DNA of 64,000 bases from assembly GCF_030540835.1 (NCBI RefSeq), contig NZ_JAUOEK010000184.1:186001-250000 (forward strand). Reading direction: 5' to 3'. A model generated the notes under the pieces. That model did no database searches, was not told the DNA's origin, and saw nothing but the letters and a program-made list of their open reading frames with translations. The translations under genes were made by a program, and so were the position numbers. Below are positions 24,933-62,307 of the stretch, piece by piece (position 1 is the first letter of the stretch; every line of letters begins with the position of its first letter). This DNA is from Flavivirga aquimarina (GTDB taxonomy: Bacteria > Bacteroidota > Bacteroidia > Flavobacteriales > Flavobacteriaceae).

Positions 24933-26462
24933 TTAAATATTCAACTTTTCTAAGTGTATATCTAAAGTCTTTTCTTTTTTATTGTATTCCATTAGCATTA
25001 CATGCCCAAGCTTAGCTGGTAAAACCCTAAGTTCAATTTTCTTACTATCTTTTTCTAAATAAATTTTGTCTTCAGATAGTTTTCCTTCGTTGTACATAAT
25101 AGTTTTAAATGCCAATTTATTTTTTTCTCCTTTTAACCTTTCATAATCTATAAAATTTGCATAAAACCTGTCCCTATCTGTATCTATTTGGGTAAACTCA
25201 TAATCAAAAGCACCAAAAGCTTTCAAAGCATGGGCATTAAGTTGTGGGCTGCCAAAATCTATTAAGCTTGGCGCACGGGACTTTCCTTTTTTAAAGACTT
25301 CAATATTATTGAGATCAAAATTATTATTAAACTCAAAAACCATAGCATCAGTAATTGTTAATTGAGTAGCAGATCCACTACCGCCTAGAGCAAGAGAAGC
25401 AATGCCGGCCCCACTTGCTGTTTTTCTATACTTCTCGCCTATGCAATAATAAGTTCCTTTTTGGGTTCTTACGATATCATGAAAATAAACATAACCTCTG
25501 TTTGAGTCTTTACCATCTAAACCAGTTGGCATCATTTTGTCTATTTTGTCTTCCCAACTAACTTTGTTATCAGAAATAACCTTTCCGTCTAAATTATTTA
25601 TTTGGGCAAAAATACCTAAGCTTTTCGCCTTTATTATATTATCTCCTTTTTTATAATATTCTCCCAAAAGAACGACTTCATTCTCATTGGATAAAAACGC
25701 ATTTGTTATAAGCCTTGGATTATTCTCTCTATCAAACTCTTTTTCAAATAACAACTTACCTGTTTCTATATCGATAACCAATACCTTAAATTTTATGGTT
25801 TGACTAAATAGCGATTTTCTTGAAGCTTCTAAAGCAACAATAACTTTTTCATTTACTTCTATAGGGTTAATAGCCAAAATTTCCTCACTGTCTTCTGGAG
25901 AATTATAATCCCATGTAGTTCCTCCATCTGTGGCTATATATTTTAAACCATATCCTAATTTTTCATTGTTTTTTACATAGTTGAACAAAAAACCCTTATT
26001 ATCTACTGGAAGTAACATATTAAAGTTTCCGGTTTTAACCATCAAATTCAACCATTTCATTTCTTTTTTGTTAACATCTATCAAAACATCCTTTCCCCTC
26101 TCACCTTTCTTGTCAAAAGAAACAAGCTTATATTGTCGCTCTTTAACATTAATCATGGTAAACATTAACGCTTGATTGTTAAACTTGCTATCTGCTAAAA
26201 TGGTGTTTTTTTCATCTATATAAGATTTTGTTGCAATATCATTTAAGTTATTGTCTAACATCTTAATAGCATATTCTCTTTTACCTTTTTTTAGCTTATC
26301 AACTTCATAGTAAAAATAATAGCCATCTACATCATTATTTTTATCCATTAAAGCTCCTATATTTTTCATTTTTAGGGAAGTAATTTCTTTAAGCGTTTTT
26401 TCTTGCGCGTTTAAAGAAAAGCTTATAATACTTAAGCATATTAAAGTTAAAAATTTTCTCAT
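24933..26462 (-). CDS. Exported protein of unknown function
   Basis: A 509-residue protein with a signal peptide (KFLTLICLSIISFSLNAQ). I do not recognise a characterised family. The mature part alternates short beta-strand-like stretches with charged turns (KEMKWLNLMVKTGNFNMLLP, KVLVIDIETGKLLFEKEF), which suggests a beta-propeller-like or repeated-strand fold. A Gly/Ser/Ala-rich piece (GIASLALGGSGSATQ) lies near residue 355. The upstream neighbour, 11 bp away and probably in the same transcript, is an M48 peptidase. Similar proteins seem widespread in Flavobacteriia. Confidence 0.7.
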   Translation of the reverse strand: MRKFLTLICLSIISFSLNAQEKTLKEITSLKMKNIGALMDKNNDVDGYYFYYEVDKLKKGKREYAIKMLDNNLNDIATKSYIDEKNTILADSKFNNQALMFTMINVKERQYKLVSFDKKGERGKDVLIDVNKKEMKWLNLMVKTGNFNMLLPVDNKGFLFNYVKNNEKLGYGLKYIATDGGTTWDYNSPEDSEEILAINPIEVNEKVIVALEASRKSLFSQTIKFKVLVIDIETGKLLFEKEFDRENNPRLITNAFLSNENEVVLLGEYYKKGDNIIKAKSLGIFAQINNLDGKVISDNKVSWEDKIDKMMPTGLDGKDSNRGYVYFHDIVRTQKGTYYCIGEKYRKTASGAGIASLALGGSGSATQLTITDAMVFEFNNNFDLNNIEVFKKGKSRAPSLIDFGSPQLNAHALKAFGAFDYEFTQIDTDRDRFYANFIDYERLKGEKNKLAFKTIMYNEGKLSEDKIYLEKDSKKIELRVLPAKLGHVMLMEYNKKEKTLDIHLEKLNI

Positions 26463-26473
26463 TTTTCTAAAAG

Positions 26474-27832
26474 TTAATTATTGATTGATTTAAAAAATTC
26501 TATTATTTCACTAAGATTGTGAGTGTCTATCTTTTTATTTTTAATTAATTCGCAAAAAGCCAACCCTATTTTTTTCACCTCGTTAAGTTCTAAATTGTTC
26601 AAAAAAAGTCGAATTGTATTTAACTGTTTCTCATCTGAAAAACCATTCTTTTGGGGGACATACTTTCCTAATTCATGTGCTTTTTTTGCTTGATAAGTCA
26701 GGTACAGTAATTCCACCATTTTAGAATAATAATATTCTGAACTTATTTTTTTATGATTGTATTTTTCTATCAATTGATACAAGGCTAAATCTAAAAACTT
26801 CAAATCAAAGGCGAACTGAATACTTTGCATATTAGACACATGCTTTAAGTCTTGATATTTATAATCAATCGTTTTTAATTTATTTTCTTCCCTTATTACG
26901 TTGTAATCTTTTATCAATTTATTCACCCTAAACTCAATTTCCGGGTGTGTTTTCAAAGTATCTGAAACTAAGCTAAAATCATTTATTTTTTCGCTTGTAT
27001 CAAAAAGCGATGTTGTTTCTTTTAGCCAATACGATTTAAATGGATAGCTCTTAAAATCAAAAACACTATCTATCTTAATATCGTGATGAAAAACCATTTC
27101 ATCTACTCTTTTTAGCTTTTCTAAAGCATAAAGAGCTGCTGGTTTTGAATATCTTGTTTTAGAAAACATAACAAAGCCTAAAGAATCTGCCTCTGCTTCT
27201 ACTTCCTTGGAATAGTCTAAAATATCTATGCTTAATTCATCAATAACAGAAAGTGCAGCTCTAGTTTGTCCGTATCTCTTTCTTTTAATTTCTCTTACTT
27301 TTTTTTTGGTCTCTTTTGAATTTATTAGTGCTACTCTTTTAGTAATACCTTTTAAAGAGTGTTCTAGCAACTTGTGCGCTATTTCATGGCATATTATAAA
27401 TGCCAATTCATCATTGGATTCTAACTGGGTAAATAAACCTAAATTGATTTCAAACATGCCATCTCCATAGCAAGCTGCATTTGGTACTATAGAATTCTTT
27501 ATAAAAAAACTAAAGTCTGTTGGGTTAATGTTAGGATTGGATTCGTAAATATGCTCAAGTACGAGATTTAAATCTTTTTTTATTTTAGAATTAAAAATAT
27601 AAGTGCTGTCTTCTATTGATTCTAAAACTTTTCCATCTCTGTTTTTATAAGCTTTTTTTATTTTAGAAGAAAGGGAACCGTTAATTTTCTCAATATGGTT
27701 ATTATTAATTCGCTTTAAATAAACTTTTAGAGAATCTAAGTTATTCGGAATATACTGATTTGAAGATTCTTGCGCAGTGATAAAATTGATAATACACAAA
27801 AATATTAGAATTGGGGAGTGTCTAAAATTCAT
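26474..27832 (-). CDS. Exported M48-type zinc metallopeptidase
   Basis: A 452-residue protein with an N-terminal signal peptide (SPILIFLCIINFITAQ). The zinc motif HEIAHKLLEH is at about residue 149 and the downstream Glu ligand is in EVEAEADSLGF, the usual M48 order. Members degrade misfolded envelope proteins (BepA/HtpX/Oma1 group). No transmembrane segment after the signal is evident, so it should act in the periplasm. The C-terminal half is helical and Leu-rich, perhaps a TPR-like region as in BepA. It is probably co-transcribed with the 509-residue gene. Confidence 0.85.
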   Translation of the reverse strand: MNFRHSPILIFLCIINFITAQESSNQYIPNNLDSLKVYLKRINNNHIEKINGSLSSKIKKAYKNRDGKVLESIEDSTYIFNSKIKKDLNLVLEHIYESNPNINPTDFSFFIKNSIVPNAACYGDGMFEINLGLFTQLESNDELAFIICHEIAHKLLEHSLKGITKRVALINSKETKKKVREIKRKRYGQTRAALSVIDELSIDILDYSKEVEAEADSLGFVMFSKTRYSKPAALYALEKLKRVDEMVFHHDIKIDSVFDFKSYPFKSYWLKETTSLFDTSEKINDFSLVSDTLKTHPEIEFRVNKLIKDYNVIREENKLKTIDYKYQDLKHVSNMQSIQFAFDLKFLDLALYQLIEKYNHKKISSEYYYSKMVELLYLTYQAKKAHELGKYVPQKNGFSDEKQLNTIRLFLNNLELNEVKKIGLAFCELIKNKKIDTHNLSEIIEFFKSINN

Positions 27833-27915: not shown

Positions 27916-28998
27916 TTAACCATTAATAATCTTTTCCTGATGGTTAATTGATTCTTGGTGAATGGCTTTAAACATTCTTAATATAAACTCTTCACTTAAG
28001 CCATGTTGTTCTCCTTCTAAAACCATTTTTCCTAAAATCTCGTTCCATCGTTTAGATTGTAAAACGGCAACATTCTTTTGTTTTTTAAGTGCTCCAATAC
28101 CATCGGCTGCAACCATACGCTTGCCTAATAAATCAATAATTTGATTATCAACAATATCAATTTGTGCTCTTAAATTATCTAATGCACTGTTGTACTCTGC
28201 TTCTGCATTAGTCTCTTTTCTTATTTTAAGATCTTTCATAATTTGCACTAAACTAGCTGGAGTTACTTGTTGCGCAGCATCACTCCATGCATTTTCAGGA
28301 TCGTAATGTGTTTCAATCATCAACCCATCAAAATTTAAATCTAAAGCCGTTTGAGACACATCCAAAATCATATCACGATTCCCTGTAATATGCGACGGAT
28401 CGTTAATTAAAGGGATGTCTGGGAATTTATTTTGAAACTCAATAGCCAATTGCCATTCTGGAATGTTTCTATATTTTGTTTTTTGATATGTTGAAAATCC
28501 TCTGTGAATCGCCCCAATGTTTTTAACACCTGATTTATATATTCTTTCAATACCTCCTAGCCATAAGGATAAATCCGGGTTTACCGGGTTTTTTATTAAT
28601 ACAGGCTTATCTGTACCTTGTAAAGCATCTGCAATTTCTTGCATTATAAACGGACTTACTGTAGAACGTGCTCCAATCCATAATAAATCTACATCATGCT
28701 CTAAAGCTAGTTTTACATGAGCTGCATTAGCTACTTCTGTACAGATTTTCATGCCTGTTTCTGCTTTTACTTTTTGCAGCCACTTTAAACCCAATGCACC
28801 AACACCTTCAAACATTCCCGGTCTTGTTCTTGGTTTCCAAATACCAGCTCTAAAATAGTTAACATCTGTATCTTTTAACTCATGGGCTATTTTTAATACC
28901 TGCTCTTCTGTTTCAGCACTACAAGGCCCTGCAATAACCAAGGGATGATCTAAATTTAGTGCATCCAACCAGTTTCTCATTTCTTTTTTATTTTCCAT
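27916..28998 (-). CDS. Bifunctional DAHP synthase / chorismate mutase
   Basis: A 360-residue fusion. Residues of about 1-265 are a type I-beta (KDO8P-like) 3-deoxy-7-phosphoheptulonate synthase: VIAGPCSAETEEQ, FRAGIWKPRTRPGMFEG, IGARSTVSPF, IKNPVNPDLSLWLGG and DPSHITGNRD. Residues of about 270-360 are an AroQ chorismate mutase: LRAQIDIVDNQIIDLLGKRM and HQESINHQEKI. It catalyses both the entry step to the shikimate pathway and the branch to prephenate, and the mutase part may also serve as the allosteric domain. It is the last gene of the operon, 21 bp after tyrA. Confidence 0.95.
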   Translation of the reverse strand: MENKKEMRNWLDALNLDHPLVIAGPCSAETEEQVLKIAHELKDTDVNYFRAGIWKPRTRPGMFEGVGALGLKWLQKVKAETGMKICTEVANAAHVKLALEHDVDLLWIGARSTVSPFIMQEIADALQGTDKPVLIKNPVNPDLSLWLGGIERIYKSGVKNIGAIHRGFSTYQKTKYRNIPEWQLAIEFQNKFPDIPLINDPSHITGNRDMILDVSQTALDLNFDGLMIETHYDPENAWSDAAQQVTPASLVQIMKDLKIRKETNAEAEYNSALDNLRAQIDIVDNQIIDLLGKRMVAADGIGALKKQKNVAVLQSKRWNEILGKMVLEGEQHGLSEEFILRMFKAIHQESINHQEKIING

Positions 28999-29019: not shown

Positions 29020-29871
29020 TTAAGCTATTCCGTTTAATATTTGTTTTATATGATTCGTGTTTTTCATTTCATTATAGACTGCTTCAAAATCATCTTTCTC
29101 CATAAGCTCTTTAAACTGGCTTAGATTTTCGATATATTCTGCTAAAGTTTCAATGACATTTTCTTTATTTTGTTTAAAAATAGGAGTCCACATTTCTGGA
29201 GAACTCTTTGCTAAACGGACTGTAGAAGCAAATCCACTCCCAGCCATATCAAAAATATCGCGTTCATTTTTTTCTTTTTCTATCACCGTTTTACCTAACA
29301 TAAATGAACTTATATGTGACAAATGAGACATATATGCTATATGTTTATCATGGGCTTCCGGATTCATATAACGCATACGCATCCCGACATCTGCAAAAAG
29401 TTTTAATGCCTTTTCCTGAAGTTTAAATGCTGTTTTTTCAACTTCGCAAACAATATTTGTTTTACCTTTAAACAAACCACTCATTGCGGCACTAGGACCT
29501 GAATGCTCTGTTCCTGCAATAGGATGCATCGCCAAGAAATTTCTACGTTTAGGATGATTCTCAACAACTTTACAGATATCTAATTTGGTTGATCCTGCAT
29601 CTACAACTAATCCCGAATCGGATATTTTATCTAAAATAGTTGGCAGTAATTTTACTGTAGCATCTACTGGAATAGATATAATAACTAAATCGGCTTTATC
29701 AATATCTTCAAAGGTTGCTTTTTTATCAATTAAATTAAGAGACAACGCTTCATCAAGTGTTGTTTGCTTTCTACTAATACCATGAATAACCATTTCTGGA
29801 TCGTTCTTTTTAATATCTATAGCAAGACTACCTCCTATTAATCCAACTCCTATGATGTAAATATTTTTCAT
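29020..29871 (-). CDS. tyrA: Prephenate dehydrogenase
   Basis: A 283-residue NAD(P)-dependent dehydrogenase with Rossmann motif IIGVGLIGGSLA at the N-terminus and conserved blocks MHPIAGTEHSGPSAA and YMSHLSHISSFMLG. It oxidatively decarboxylates prephenate to 4-hydroxyphenylpyruvate, the tyrosine precursor. There is no ACT or fused mutase domain; mutase activity is supplied by the next gene. It stands third in the operon, about 124 bp after the aminotransferase gene; that gap holds a degenerate repeat and a small hairpin. Confidence 0.93.
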   Translation of the reverse strand: MKNIYIIGVGLIGGSLAIDIKKNDPEMVIHGISRKQTTLDEALSLNLIDKKATFEDIDKADLVIISIPVDATVKLLPTILDKISDSGLVVDAGSTKLDICKVVENHPKRRNFLAMHPIAGTEHSGPSAAMSGLFKGKTNIVCEVEKTAFKLQEKALKLFADVGMRMRYMNPEAHDKHIAYMSHLSHISSFMLGKTVIEKEKNERDIFDMAGSGFASTVRLAKSSPEMWTPIFKQNKENVIETLAEYIENLSQFKELMEKDDFEAVYNEMKNTNHIKQILNGIA

Positions 29872-29995: not shown

Positions 29996-31141
29996 CTATT
30001 TAACTCTTTTTATAGCTTCTTCTAAAACCTCATTTGTTGCACATAAAGAAAATCGAATATAACCTTCTCCTTTACTACCAAAAATGGTTCCTGGCGTAAT
30101 AAAAATATGTTTGTCTTTAAGCACCGAATCTATATACGCTTCTGCTTTTATTCCATCAGGTAATTTTGCCCAAACAAAAAGCCCTGTGGCATTTTTATCG
30201 TAAGTACAATTTAAAGCGTCTGCTAATTGCCAAACTAAATCGCGACGTTGTTTATAAACACTGTTTAAAGTAACATACCACATGTTTGAACATTTTAAAG
30301 CTTCTATAGCTCCTTTTTGAATGCCATAAAACATACCGGAATCCATATTACTCTTTACCTTTAAAATATTGCTTATATGCTTGTTATCTCCAACCACCAT
30401 ACCTACACGCCATCCTGCCATATTAAAGGTTTTACTTAACGAATTAAGTTCTAAACAAACATCTTTTGCTCCTTTAACGCTTAGGATACTTTTTGGTGCT
30501 TCATTTAATATAAAACTGTATGGATTGTCGTTAACTATTAATATATCATGACGCTTTGCAAACGCTACCAATTCTTCAAATAAATACTTATTTGGTTTAG
30601 CTCCTGTTGGCATATGCGGATAATTCACCCACATTAATTTCACTTTACTTAAGTCTAATTCTTCTAAAGCTTTAAAATCTGGCAGCCAATTATTTGCTGC
30701 ATCTAATTCGTAAAAAACAGGTTTAGCTCCTACTAATTTTGTAACAGATTGATACGTTGGATAGCCTGGATTTGGGATCAACACAGCATCACCTTCATTT
30801 AAATAGGCCATCGAAATATGCATAATACCTTCTTTACTTCCCATAAGAGGCAAAATCTCTGTTGTAGGACTTAAAGACACCGAAAAATGTTCTTTATAGA
30901 ATCCCGCTATAGCGTCTCTTAATTCCGGTAAGCCTTGATAACTTTGGTACTTATGTGCATTAGGTGCTAACAACCCTTCTTTTATAGCCTCTACAACTCT
31001 TTGTGGTGGCTGTAAATCTGGACTGCCGATACCTAAATTAATGATAGGTTTACCACTTGTTATAAGAAAATTTACTTCTCTTAACTTTTTTGAAAAGTAG
31101 TATTCTTCTACAGTTTGTAACCTATTAGCTGCTTGAATCAT
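29996..31141 (-). CDS. Class I/II PLP-dependent aminotransferase (aromatic, probable)
   Basis: A 381-residue fold type I aminotransferase. The PLP lysine lies in LNSLSKTFNMAGWRVG; other marks are GSKEGIMHISMAYLNEGD, NPGYPTYQS and the C-terminal IRFSLC. It resembles aspartate/LL-diaminopimelate-type aminotransferases, but its place between pheA and tyrA suggests it transaminates phenylpyruvate and hydroxyphenylpyruvate. It overlaps pheA by ATGA, which implies coupled translation. An unusual YPHMPTGA replaces the usual YPNNPTG motif. Confidence 0.88.
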   Translation of the reverse strand: MIQAANRLQTVEEYYFSKKLREVNFLITSGKPIINLGIGSPDLQPPQRVVEAIKEGLLAPNAHKYQSYQGLPELRDAIAGFYKEHFSVSLSPTTEILPLMGSKEGIMHISMAYLNEGDAVLIPNPGYPTYQSVTKLVGAKPVFYELDAANNWLPDFKALEELDLSKVKLMWVNYPHMPTGAKPNKYLFEELVAFAKRHDILIVNDNPYSFILNEAPKSILSVKGAKDVCLELNSLSKTFNMAGWRVGMVVGDNKHISNILKVKSNMDSGMFYGIQKGAIEALKCSNMWYVTLNSVYKQRRDLVWQLADALNCTYDKNATGLFVWAKLPDGIKAEAYIDSVLKDKHIFITPGTIFGSKGEGYIRFSLCATNEVLEEAIKRVK

Positions 31142-31965
31142 AACTTAGCATTTTTATATTCACCCAACACTTTAAATCCTTCTCCCATAATATCAATTAT
31201 AGATTTCGATTTTTTAAAATCTATGTATTTTTCAAAAGTAACATCAACAAAAAAAGCATATTTCCATGGTGTATCTACTATTGGTAAAGATTGAATTTTA
31301 GTTAAATTCAATTTGCAATCGCTCAGCACATTAAGAATGGCTGCCAAGCTCCCTCGTTTATGGTCACTTTCAAATTTAATAGAGGCTTTGTTGATTTCAT
31401 TTTCTGGCACTTCAGAATTTGTTCGTTTTACAATGACAAAACGTGTTTCGTTATGTGCTATCGTTTGAATACTCTTTGCCAAAACATTTAACTCAAATAT
31501 ATCTGCTGCCATAATACTTGCAATAGCACCAACTCCTTTAAGCTTTTTTTCATGTATGCGTTTAGCAACCTCGGCTGTATCTTTATCTTCCACTAATTTT
31601 ATATGTGGGTATTGCTTAAAGAACTCTTTACATTGCAGCAATGCCATAGGGTGAGAATACACCTCTTCAATATCTTCTATATTCTGATTTGGCAATGCCA
31701 TTAAATTATGCTGAATATCTAAATAATGTTCACCAACTATATGCAGACCATAGGTGTCAATTAAAGCATAATTAGGAATAATGGAGCCTACTATAGAATT
31801 CTCCAAGGCCATAATGGCAGCATCACATTCCTTAGTACTTAAAGAATCTACAACCCTATCGAATGTTAAACATTCTATAGCGTCAACAGGTGTATCAAAA
31901 AATTGTTGTGACACAATATGATGAAAAGATCCCTTTACTCCTTGTATGGCTACTCTTTTAATCAA
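31138..31965 (-). CDS. pheA: Prephenate dehydratase
   Basis: A 275-residue PheA: prephenate dehydratase domain (about 1-180; AIQGVKGSFHHIV, ALENSIVGSI and a THR-like motif as NETRFVIV) followed by an ACT domain (about 195-270; KASIKFESDHKRGSLAAILN). It makes phenylpyruvate and is normally feedback-inhibited by Phe through the ACT domain. The start is non-ATG: TTG at 31965, with an in-frame TGA only two codons upstream, and no Met until about residue 52, so a TTG (or adjacent ATT) start is forced. It is the first structural gene of the operon, behind the attenuator. No fused chorismate mutase is present. Confidence 0.92.
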   Translation of the reverse strand: MIKRVAIQGVKGSFHHIVSQQFFDTPVDAIECLTFDRVVDSLSTKECDAAIMALENSIVGSIIPNYALIDTYGLHIVGEHYLDIQHNLMALPNQNIEDIEEVYSHPMALLQCKEFFKQYPHIKLVEDKDTAEVAKRIHEKKLKGVGAIASIMAADIFELNVLAKSIQTIAHNETRFVIVKRTNSEVPENEINKASIKFESDHKRGSLAAILNVLSDCKLNLTKIQSLPIVDTPWKYAFFVDVTFEKYIDFKKSKSIIDIMGEGFKVLGEYKNAKL

Positions 31966-32027: not shown

Positions 32028-32055
32028 AAAAAAAAGTCCCGATTTTCATCGAGAC
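32028..32055 (-). terminator. Attenuator terminator in the pheA leader
   Basis: Minus-strand arms GTCTCGAT (32055-32048) and ATCGGGAC (32043-32036) form 8 bp with one G-U pair, closed by a GAAA tetraloop and followed by eight T (32035-32028). It lies 63 nt before the pheA start and after the leader peptide stop, so it would end transcription before the structural genes unless blocked. Confidence 0.88.
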
Positions 32056-32100
32056 TCATATTTTAAATTTATAGTTATAAATTATACATACAACGTCTCG
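32050..32100 (-). promoter_or_regulatory. Antiterminator segment competing with the attenuator
   Basis: CGAGAC at 32100-32095, inside the end of the leader peptide frame, is complementary to GTCTCG at 32055-32050, the 5' arm of the terminator. The two pairings exclude each other. Between them a separate hairpin, AATTTATA-AC-TATAAATT, can stack. A ribosome stalled at the aromatic codons leaves CGAGAC free to form the antiterminator; a ribosome reaching the stop would cover it. Confidence 0.75.
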
Positions 32101-32165
32101 TTCCTTTTGCTAAAAAAGAAATAAAACCAGTTGTTAAAATATGTATAAAATACCGTTGTTATCAT
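32082..32165 (-). CDS. Aromatic leader peptide of the pheA operon
   Basis: A 27-codon frame too short for standard gene calling, ATG at 32165 and TAA at 32084-32082. Residues 6-18 read FYTYFNNWFYFFF: ten of thirteen are Phe, Tyr or Trp, and 11 of 27 overall. Such density is the signature of a translation-sensing leader in amino acid operon attenuation. It lies between a predicted promoter and the attenuator, ahead of genes for phenylalanine and tyrosine synthesis. The aromatic codons end about 10 nt before the CGAGAC segment, a suitable distance for stalling control. Expression is inferred, not shown. Confidence 0.85.
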   Translation of the reverse strand: MITTVFYTYFNNWFYFFFSKRNETLYV

Positions 32166-32175
32166 AATTATGAGG

Positions 32176-32206
32176 CTAAAGTAATTAATATTTTAAGAAA
32201 TCAAAA
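32176..32206 (-). promoter_or_regulatory. Predicted promoter of the aromatic operon
   Basis: On the minus strand TTTTG (32206-32202), 18 bp, then TACTTTAG (32183-32176), one mismatch to TAnnTTTG. Transcription would start only a few bases before the leader peptide ATG at 32165. Confidence 0.5.
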
Positions 32207-32310: not shown

Positions 32311-33207
32311 ATGTCTATTGAGGTAGTAGGAGTTTCAAAACACTATGGCGAACAAAAAGCTCTAAACAATGTATCGTTTAAAGTTAACAAACCGGAAATT
32401 GTTGGGTTTTTAGGTCCTAATGGTGCCGGAAAATCTACCATGATGAAAATCTTAACTACCTATATTAACCCCAGTGAAGGTGCTGCTAAGGTAAATGGTC
32501 ATGACATAAAAGAAAGCATACAACTCGTTCAACAAAGTGTTGGATACTTACCGGAACATAATCCATTGTATTTAGATATGTTTGTTAAAGAATATTTAAA
32601 CTTTAATGCACATATTTATAAGATTTCTAAACAACGTATTAATGATGTTATTGAACTTACTGGTTTAACTCCAGAGGCCCATAAAAAAATCGGGCAACTC
32701 TCTAAGGGGTATCGCCAACGTGTAGGTTTAGCGAATGCTTTATTGCATGATCCTGATGTGTTGATACTAGATGAACCAACTACAGGTTTAGACCCCAATC
32801 AATTGGTTGACATTAGACGCCTGATAAAAAAAGTTGGGGAAGCTAAAACGGTATTTCTATCTACACATATTATGCAAGAGGTTGAAGCCATGTGCGATCG
32901 TGTCATTATAATTAATAAAGGTGAAATTGTTGCTGATAAAAAACTAAGCGAACTCCGTGATGAAAAAGAACAAATTGTTATTGTAGAATTTGATTATCGT
33001 GTTGAAGACGCTTTTTTACTAAAACTTCCTAAAGTTAAAAACGTAAGCAACACCCATGACTTTGTTTATGAAATTACTTTTAAAACCTCAGAAGATATGC
33101 GATCTCATGTATTCGATTTTGCTCATGATAATCAATTGAAAATTTTACAACTTAATCAAAAGAATGCTAGTTTGGAATCTCTTTTCAGGGATTTAACATC
33201 AAAATAA
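32311..33207 (+). CDS. gldA: Gliding motility ABC transporter ATP-binding subunit GldA
   Basis: A protein of about 298 residues. ABC ATPase motifs: Walker A GPNGAGKST, Q-loop region, signature LSKGYRQRVGLA, Walker B VLILDEPTTGLDP and H-loop LSTHIMQE. The sequence and length match GldA, the ATPase of the GldA-GldF-GldG complex that is required for gliding in some flavobacteria; gldF and gldG are not in the window. A longer frame from a GTG at 32209 reads through an implausible Phe/Ile-rich stretch and overlaps a likely promoter (TATTTTTG at 32286-32293), so the ATG at 32311 (MSIEVVGVSKHYG) is used. The name rests on overall similarity. Confidence 0.87.
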   Translation: MSIEVVGVSKHYGEQKALNNVSFKVNKPEIVGFLGPNGAGKSTMMKILTTYINPSEGAAKVNGHDIKESIQLVQQSVGYLPEHNPLYLDMFVKEYLNFNAHIYKISKQRINDVIELTGLTPEAHKKIGQLSKGYRQRVGLANALLHDPDVLILDEPTTGLDPNQLVDIRRLIKKVGEAKTVFLSTHIMQEVEAMCDRVIIINKGEIVADKKLSELRDEKEQIVIVEFDYRVEDAFLLKLPKVKNVSNTHDFVYEITFKTSEDMRSHVFDFAHDNQLKILQLNQKNASLESLFRDLTSK

Positions 33208-44083: not shown

Positions 44084-44100
44084 TAAAAGAAACACTTTCC

Positions 44101-44219
44101 GTTATCTTTCTAATATTGTTAATACTAGTAGAACGTAGCACCTTCTTTATCTCGATAACTATCGAAAAAAGGGTTGCCAAGGCTTCGCAGGGTCTATTCC
44201 CTCTGCCTTTCTTGATAAC
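44101..44219 (-). promoter_or_regulatory. SAM-I riboswitch (S box) upstream of the split metH operon
   Basis: The minus strand carries SAM-I consensus blocks in order: P1 GTTATC, AAGAAAGGC, AGAGGGA, GACCCTGCGAAGCC, TTGGCAACCC, a P3 hairpin, GAAGGTGCTACGTTCTAC, P4 CTAGTATTAACAATATTAG and closing AGATAAC. SAM binding should reduce expression of metH, the ABM gene and metF. The aptamer is complete. It lies between the end of cysM and the first met gene. Confidence 0.93.
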
Positions 44220-44239
44220 ATTTATACGTTAATGAACAA

Positions 44240-62137: not shown

Positions 62138-62277
62138 GTTATCTATCCGTTAAATCCTGAAACTGTACTGAAAATAAATTCAACAATTTTAGGACGGGGT
62201 AGAATTTAGCACCTTCTTTATTAATAAAGGGTTGCTAAGGTTTCATCGGGTCTAATCCCTCCGCCTTTCTTGATAAC
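62138..62277 (-). promoter_or_regulatory. SAM-I riboswitch (S box) upstream of metY
   Basis: Minus-strand blocks in order: P1 GTTATC (62277-62272), AAGAAAGGC, GGAGGGA, GACCCGATGAAACC, TTAGCAACCC, a short P3, AAGGTGCTAAATTCTACC, a long P4 closed by CCGT and ACGG, then AGATAAC. P4 is unusually long, about 50 nt. Downstream a hairpin AAATTAC-TTTTA-GTAATTT followed by TT and AAATTTT (62131-62100) may be a weak terminator. It should repress metY, the fusion gene and metZ when SAM is plentiful. Confidence 0.93.
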
Positions 62278-62307
62278 ATTTCAATAAGTGATTGAACTTT
62301 GTGAATG

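Follow-up and report, generated by a model that had tools for sequence, protein, structure and literature searches.

Ahead of the pheA gene of Flavivirga aquimarina, a short reading frame crowded with aromatic codons is followed by a terminator-like hairpin, which raises the question of whether the two form a switch that senses the products of the operon. A first-pass annotation of this DNA had proposed the layout of classical ribosome-mediated attenuation, and that layout holds up: the frame, the terminator, the antiterminator and the hairpin between regions 1 and 2 (the 1:2 hairpin) are all kept in relatives. We conclude that the pheA leader is very probably a ribosome-mediated transcription attenuator sensing charged tRNA-Phe and tRNA-Tyr, based on the leader itself, three pairings and their conservation, coding constraint, spacing and coevolution. 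All coordinates below are positions in the window, the whole 64,000-nt stretch of DNA that was analysed, and the entire attenuator lies on its minus strand.

The downstream genes named by the first-pass annotation were confirmed by Pfam, all on the minus strand: pheA, a prephenate dehydratase gene with a TTG start (31138..31965; PF00800, 1.6e-54), whose ACT domain (PF01842, 3.7e-05) falls under the Pfam cut-off; a class I/II aminotransferase gene (29996..31141; PF00155); tyrA, encoding prephenate dehydrogenase (29020..29871; PF02153 and PF20463); and a gene for a DAHP synthase-chorismate mutase fusion (27916..28998; PF00793 and PF01817). Judged by this Pfam content, the operon products are Phe and Tyr, and sensing by an aromatic run fits because the downstream operon makes both. 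On the other side of the leader, a divergent ABC-transporter gene on the plus strand has its probable start at 32311. The stretch between the DAHP synthase gene and rsgA (24936-27832) holds genes for a DUF6770 protein and an M48 peptidase. The closest named relative is Flavivirga algicola, with a PheA 92% identical.

The leader frame, 27 codons and a stop (32082..32165, ATG at 32165-32163, stop at 32084-32082), was located where it had been claimed and encodes the 27-residue peptide MITTVFYTYFNNWFYFFFSKRNETLYV. Its aromatic codons occupy residues 6-18 (FYTYFNNWFYFFF, 32112..32150) and include one Trp codon in this genome, at residue 13. The terminator was likewise borne out, with a core stem of 8 bp (GTCTCGAT/ATCGGGAC, one U.G pair), a GAAA loop and a tract of eight T (32028..32035) ending at 32028; the hairpin, regions 3 and 4, spans 32034..32057, and its stem lengthens to 10 bp through an A-U and a G.U pair. 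It was the one terminator-like site found by the terminator scan, against a mean of 0.0 in shuffled sequences.

The RNA between 32020 and 32175 folds at -33.7 kcal/mol (z -4.05), a value as good as which occurred in 0 of 200 shuffles. Such a well-folded leader would also suit a ligand-binding riboswitch or a T-box, with no role for the short frame, but no Rfam family exceeds its gathering score at the pheA leader, where the only matches are weak ones far below cut-off, and none comes near cut-off at a permissive E-value. The retention of aromatic codons and spacing across families that differ in sequence, described below, also counts against this explanation, and we regard it as extremely improbable.

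The free transcript is predicted to fold as a long 1:2 hairpin followed by the terminator (-31.7 kcal/mol). In this fold the second half of the leader folds back onto the aromatic codons: region 1, the 5' arm (32114..32153), consists mostly of aromatic codons, and the 3' arm (32077..32108) contains region 2, both arms being drawn from the fold and from pair counts. When the RNA under a stalled ribosome is removed and the 3' arm of the terminator is still unmade, regions 2 and 3 instead form an antiterminator (-14.5 kcal/mol), a helix of 12 bp interrupted by a single bulged G, that encloses a small A/U hairpin (32066..32083; 92.8% of cells paired among the aligned relatives). Its 5' arm is region 2, CGAGAC-G-UUGUAU (32088..32100; helix paired in 96.4% of cells), and its 3' arm, AUAUGAGUCUCG (32050..32061, from the fold and pair counts), overlaps the 5' arm of the terminator (region 3). 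The first-pass annotation had pointed to the CGAGAC segment inside the leader frame (32100-32095) as the complement of GTCTCG in the terminator 5' arm; in the predicted fold these six pairs are half of the 12-bp helix. This 6-nt complementarity is not significant by itself, with 6 of 50 shuffled arms equalling it in a test of the single sequence, and the support for the CGAGAC/GTCTCG pairing is comparative. Once the full terminator is present it is favoured over the antiterminator in folding, even with region 1 removed, so the switch must act by timing.

Sequence, fold and coevolution together give the locus a leader ORF of product codons, an intrinsic terminator, an antiterminator that excludes it and a 1:2 hairpin that hides region 2. 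The proposed mechanism is as follows. When Phe or Tyr is scarce, the ribosome would stall within the aromatic run and cover region 1, leaving free region 2, which lies about 10 nt past the last aromatic codon; region 2 could then pair with the nascent 5' arm of the terminator to form the 12-bp antiterminator, and RNA polymerase would continue into pheA, the aminotransferase gene, tyrA and the DAHP synthase/chorismate mutase gene. When Phe and Tyr are both abundant, the ribosome would reach the stop codon and, in this genome, where region 2 begins before the stop and the stop codon lies 16 nt after its start, would cover region 2, allowing the terminator to form. Where no ribosome is present, or one has gone past, the 1:2 hairpin would conceal region 2 with the same outcome. 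A Trp codon would be an extra stall site only in the species that have one. The start of transcription, translation of the leader, ribosome stalling, termination and the response to amino acids are all predicted steps.

To assess conservation among close relatives, we compared 92 pheA loci drawn from two overlapping groups, 12 genomes of the genus and 80 named pheA loci. The aromatic leader, the promoter box and the terminator are present in all 92. In alignment columns 26-91, which omit the first leader codons, all 32 gap runs in the leader are multiples of three, compared with 1 of 130 in the spacer that follows. Over the same columns, minority letters in five core codons number 1 at the first codon position, 8 at the second and 24 at the third, where all are T or C. 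Gaps that keep frame and variation that sits at third positions mean that the leader is held as a reading frame, which indirectly suggests that it is translated. Both features argue against a plain or protein-controlled terminator with a leader frame that is an accident of T-rich DNA, an explanation that draws on the ease with which T-rich DNA encodes Phe and on the fact that a terminator alone would reduce expression.

Each of the 78 aligned leaders contains at least seven Phe and Tyr codons; this alignment (A1) is without duplicates, L051, and four loci with 29-95 nt between the predicted transcription start and the ATG (L061, L064, L080 and L081). Across its rows, paired cells make up 100% of the terminator, 95.1% of the antiterminator structure and 92.9% and 90.5% of the two 1:2 helices, against at most 57.7% in controls with slid partners. 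Both the frame and the pairings are thus conserved in close relatives, the point on which the first-pass reading could have failed. Five relatives (L028, L041, L042, L047 and L050) have leaders that stop directly after the aromatic run and retain the RNA sequence of region 2, so region 2 is conserved as RNA, for pairing. These early-stop leaders are a natural separation of peptide function from RNA function.

Alignment of the regions upstream of pheA therefore shows conserved aromatic codons and stems, but covariation is not proven by this near set alone. Most base changes are one-sided. Within the antiterminator no pair has changed at both partners; of 500 column shuffles, 75 pair equally well and 326 reach its covariation score. 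For the 1:2 and 3:4 pairings, the 23 double-change cells are reached by 0 of 500 shuffles, but sliding the partners by -1 still yields 21, and the seven pairs with double changes are reached by 115 of 500 shuffles. The case for covariation therefore rests on a sample from across the phylum.

The terminator with its T tract in all 92 near loci also bears on whether the same parts act chiefly on translation, the leader ribosome or the hairpins governing initiation at pheA. In some relatives the T tract directly precedes the pheA start, as translational control might have it, yet the distance from leader to gene varies widely among relatives, and we find control of this kind very improbable. A model of the element (R1) gave one strong match in each of the 12 genus genomes, at pheA, the other 13 matches having E-values of 0.02 or worse; with 150 candidates scored per genome, there was no sign of a second copy.

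A PheA match was found in 337 of the 392 genomes searched. The phylum sample comprises 102 upstream regions: those of every genome with such a match in the family (43, including the window's own), the order (8) and the class (47), and 4 from among 239 others. An aromatic leader and terminator were found in 85 of the 102, compared with none of the 102 reverse strands, 4 of 2040 dinucleotide shuffles and at most 19 of 102 with other residue sets (the maximum being for LIV). By family, the pair was present in 43/43 (f1), 12/12 (f4), 11/11 (f3), 5/5 (f5), 4/4 (f11), 3/3 (f9), 1/1 (f12) and 3/8 (f8), with 3/4 for the others, so that it is seen in 8 of 10 class families that were sampled and have a PheA match. 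It was not found within 600 nt in the eight f2 regions, f2 being a sister family in the same order, or in five of the eight f8 regions, nor in the three f10 regions with a search reaching 900 nt. The f2 genomes (L207-L214) encode a divergent PheA (28-31% identity) and, with no leader found, suggest loss or replacement in that sister family. Among the counted leaders, six are weak members with a poor region 2 (L165, L169, L173, L182, L183 and L185).

Outside the class, a leader was found in 4 of 24 regions examined, a set hand-picked among the better PheA matches that leaves out five genomes whose PheA matches are better still, in frames of about 700 aa (G318, G144, G344, G294 and G286). The 20 further genomes in this set yielded one leader, at a lowered bar (5 instead of 7). 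Absence in L191, L194, L196 and L200 is not a fair test, since with frames of 668-711 aa the gene start may exceed the 1200 nt fetched. The four out-of-class loci with an aromatic leader (L183, L184, L185 and L187) have PheA matches with E-values of 1e-65 to 1e-67, better than most outside the class; it is possible that operon and switch were transferred together.

Leader and arm sequences differ among families, while the aromatic codons and the spacing are kept. Region 2 and its arm are CGAGAC/GUCUCG here and CAGGAUU/AAUCCUG, GAAGCGGGA/UCCCGCUUC or CCGGAGG/CCUCCGG elsewhere. Among 74 distinct leaders, the match of region 2 to its own terminator arm scored 9.33, compared with 6.94 (sd 0.15) for permuted arms, and none of 10,000 permutations reached it; with one leader drawn per family from 11 families, p never exceeded 0.005 over 300 draws, each of 200 permutations. 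This comparative signal indicates that region 2 and the terminator arm coevolve across families. For individual leaders the signal is less sharp: in only 52 of the 85, a group that excludes the leader of the window, is region 2 equalled by no more than 1 of 50 shuffled arms. Taken with the frame-keeping gaps and with how rarely shuffled DNA yields both a leader and a terminator, this coevolution leaves a plain terminator before pheA very improbable.

The distance from the last aromatic codon to the start of region 2 has a median of 10 nt (5th-95th percentile 5-14, against 3-31 for shuffled arms) and lies between 5 and 15 nt in 69 of the 74 distinct leaders, versus 52% for shuffled arms. The stop codon varies more, its place in the 74 leaders ranging from 8 nt ahead of the start of region 2 to 31 nt past it. 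In 16 of them it lies at least 23 nt past that start, and, on the usual size of a ribosome footprint, a ribosome that has reached it may already be beyond region 2; the 1:2 hairpin would then have to hide region 2. With the part covered by a stalled ribosome removed (a mask that we set to 6 nt beyond the last aromatic codon), the antiterminator folds in 72 of the 74. This is a modest test: by a similar measure, shuffled spacers also find a partner in the arm in 57% of cases, and real spacers in 72 of 73. In folds without a ribosome, the terminator forms in 71 of the 74 and region 2 is paired upstream in 69; with the ribosome at the stop the terminator forms in all 74, a near-trivial outcome given that all upstream RNA is removed.

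Which amino acids the leader senses can be judged from the same samples. Phe and Tyr codons both occur in all 85 leaders of the phylum sample. The first-pass annotation had suggested that Trp might be sensed as well, and a three-way Phe, Tyr and Trp sensor could draw on the lone Trp codon that this genome has at residue 13 and on DAHP synthase also feeding Trp synthesis. Three-way sensing is only partly supported because the Trp codon is optional: it occurs in 42 of the 78 near leaders and in the core of 33 of the 85 phylum-sample leaders, and trpE is preceded by a WWW leader of its own, which has a Bacteroid-trp match. We therefore consider a three-way sensor doubtful. Sensing of Phe and Tyr by classical ribosome-mediated attenuation fits the facts better than the rivals that we considered.

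The promoter-like pair of the first-pass annotation is a candidate promoter of the Bacteroidota type. A sigma-70 promoter reading was rejected, as the scan performed at chance level (3 found, 3.8 in shuffles). The candidate -7 box, TACTTTAG (32176..32183), is one position off the TAnnTTTG consensus given in the accessible portions of PMC9723704 and PMC7366714, and from the placing of such boxes at -12 to -5 (PMC9723704) the transcription start is predicted at 32171. All 92 loci carry the pattern TAnnTTAG at -12 to -5, and all but one of them also have TTTG or TTTT near -33; the -33 element here is TTTTG (32202..32206). Among 80 distinct sequences, C at -4 and T at -33 and -32 are invariant, and G at -31 is found in 69. 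Because the box was found by its pattern, the letters that the pattern fixes are bound to be invariant; the remaining letters are free of that bias.

The predicted 5' UTR is 6 nt, leaving no room for Shine-Dalgarno pairing, and Bacteroidota are described as managing without Shine-Dalgarno sequences (PMC9723704, in the portion available). Measured from the -7 box, 59 of 91 near loci have a UTR of 6 nt, 28 others fall between 5 and 12 nt and four have 29-95 nt; L051 is omitted, its core having escaped the fixed pattern. By raw count, a candidate -7 box is present in 53 of the 85 phylum-sample leaders, with UTRs of 0-6 nt in 15, 11-20 nt in 28 and 23-41 nt in 10. The leader ATG accordingly lies within 6 nt of the predicted RNA 5' end in 63 of 91 near loci and 15 of 85 in the phylum sample; since UTR lengths vary in both sets, near-leaderless predicted starts are common and not universal. 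One broader interpretation is of an old Phe/Tyr attenuator that initiates without a Shine-Dalgarno sequence, often near-leaderless, and in which the almost constant spacing of about 10 nt between the last sensing codon and region 2 records the leading edge of the ribosome. We judge this to be evenly poised between right and wrong; if true, it would imply tight coupling of transcription with near-leaderless translation throughout the group. The switch needs immediate ribosome loading and close following of the polymerase, and could serve as a probe of transcription-translation coupling in Bacteroidota.

This type of regulation has long been known. The layout resembles the E. coli pheL-pheA attenuator (RF01859, Phe_leader) as generally described, with a Phe-rich leader, regions pairing as 1:2, 2:3 and 3:4 and a position before pheA. 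In contrast to that system, region 2 here lies within the leader frame, the codons are of both Phe and Tyr, there is no room for a Shine-Dalgarno sequence and the operon serves Phe plus Tyr. RF01859 does not exceed its 55-bit gathering cut-off at the pheA leader and has no match there up to an E-value of 10; across the genome (150 of 2083 candidates scored) none was above cut-off, the best reaching 35.2 bits elsewhere, and none of the 37 weaker matches listed was at pheA. The element also resembles Bacteroid-trp (RF01692), found in the same phylum and titled a tryptophan peptide leader RNA in Rfam, but the codons of that family are Trp, and the window has no RF01692 match. Bacteroid-trp is tabulated as cis-regulatory (PMC2864571) and discussed for trp in F. 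psychrophilum (PMC6414381), in both cases in the part of the article available.

The pheA attenuator itself has been partly anticipated in print. The accessible text of PMC9723704 reports structured 5' elements without Rfam hits before pheA and hisG, shared by F. psychrophilum with other Flavobacteriaceae genera, along with clues to leader-peptide attenuation before amino-acid operons of F. psychrophilum. Its pheA element is probably the same as ours; that text gives it no mechanism, leader sequence or scheme of pairings, and no range outside the family. The portions at hand of PMC7366714 note leader-peptide-like sORFs in B. thetaiotaomicron, and those of PMC4833913 treat leader genes in many phyla with no mention of pheA or phenylalanine. 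Among the open-licence articles listed, judged by titles and abstract openings, we found no pheA mechanism in Bacteroidota. What the present comparison adds is that the matching parts of the element can be traced through many related families, offering a concrete mechanism for an RNA element so far reported, in the text consulted, as structured and conserved; matched leaders and arms in 11 families would support new RNA families.

Three further putative leader-peptide attenuators were found in the same genome, before hisG, trpE and ilvD (L123, L124 and L126). Their leaders, MTFIQLHHHFHICSQAN, MNTILNNTWWWSFKNLRS and MKKQILNTVSIIVIVIISQR, carry His, Trp and Ile/Val runs, respectively, and each is followed by a terminator. 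The best complement of the terminator arm lies 8 nt (his) and 10 nt (ilv) after the core; a simple complement search gave no clear region 2 for the trpE leader, where RF01692 matches. A Flavo-1 RNA match lies near trpE (L124:494-566), and a sub-threshold RF01859 match (34.3 bits) overlaps the ilvD leader. Within the window, two SAM riboswitches score above the Rfam gathering threshold, both on the minus strand (44099-44221 and 62177-62279). Downstream of the first and on the same strand are genes that, judging from their translations, we take to be metH-like and metF-like.
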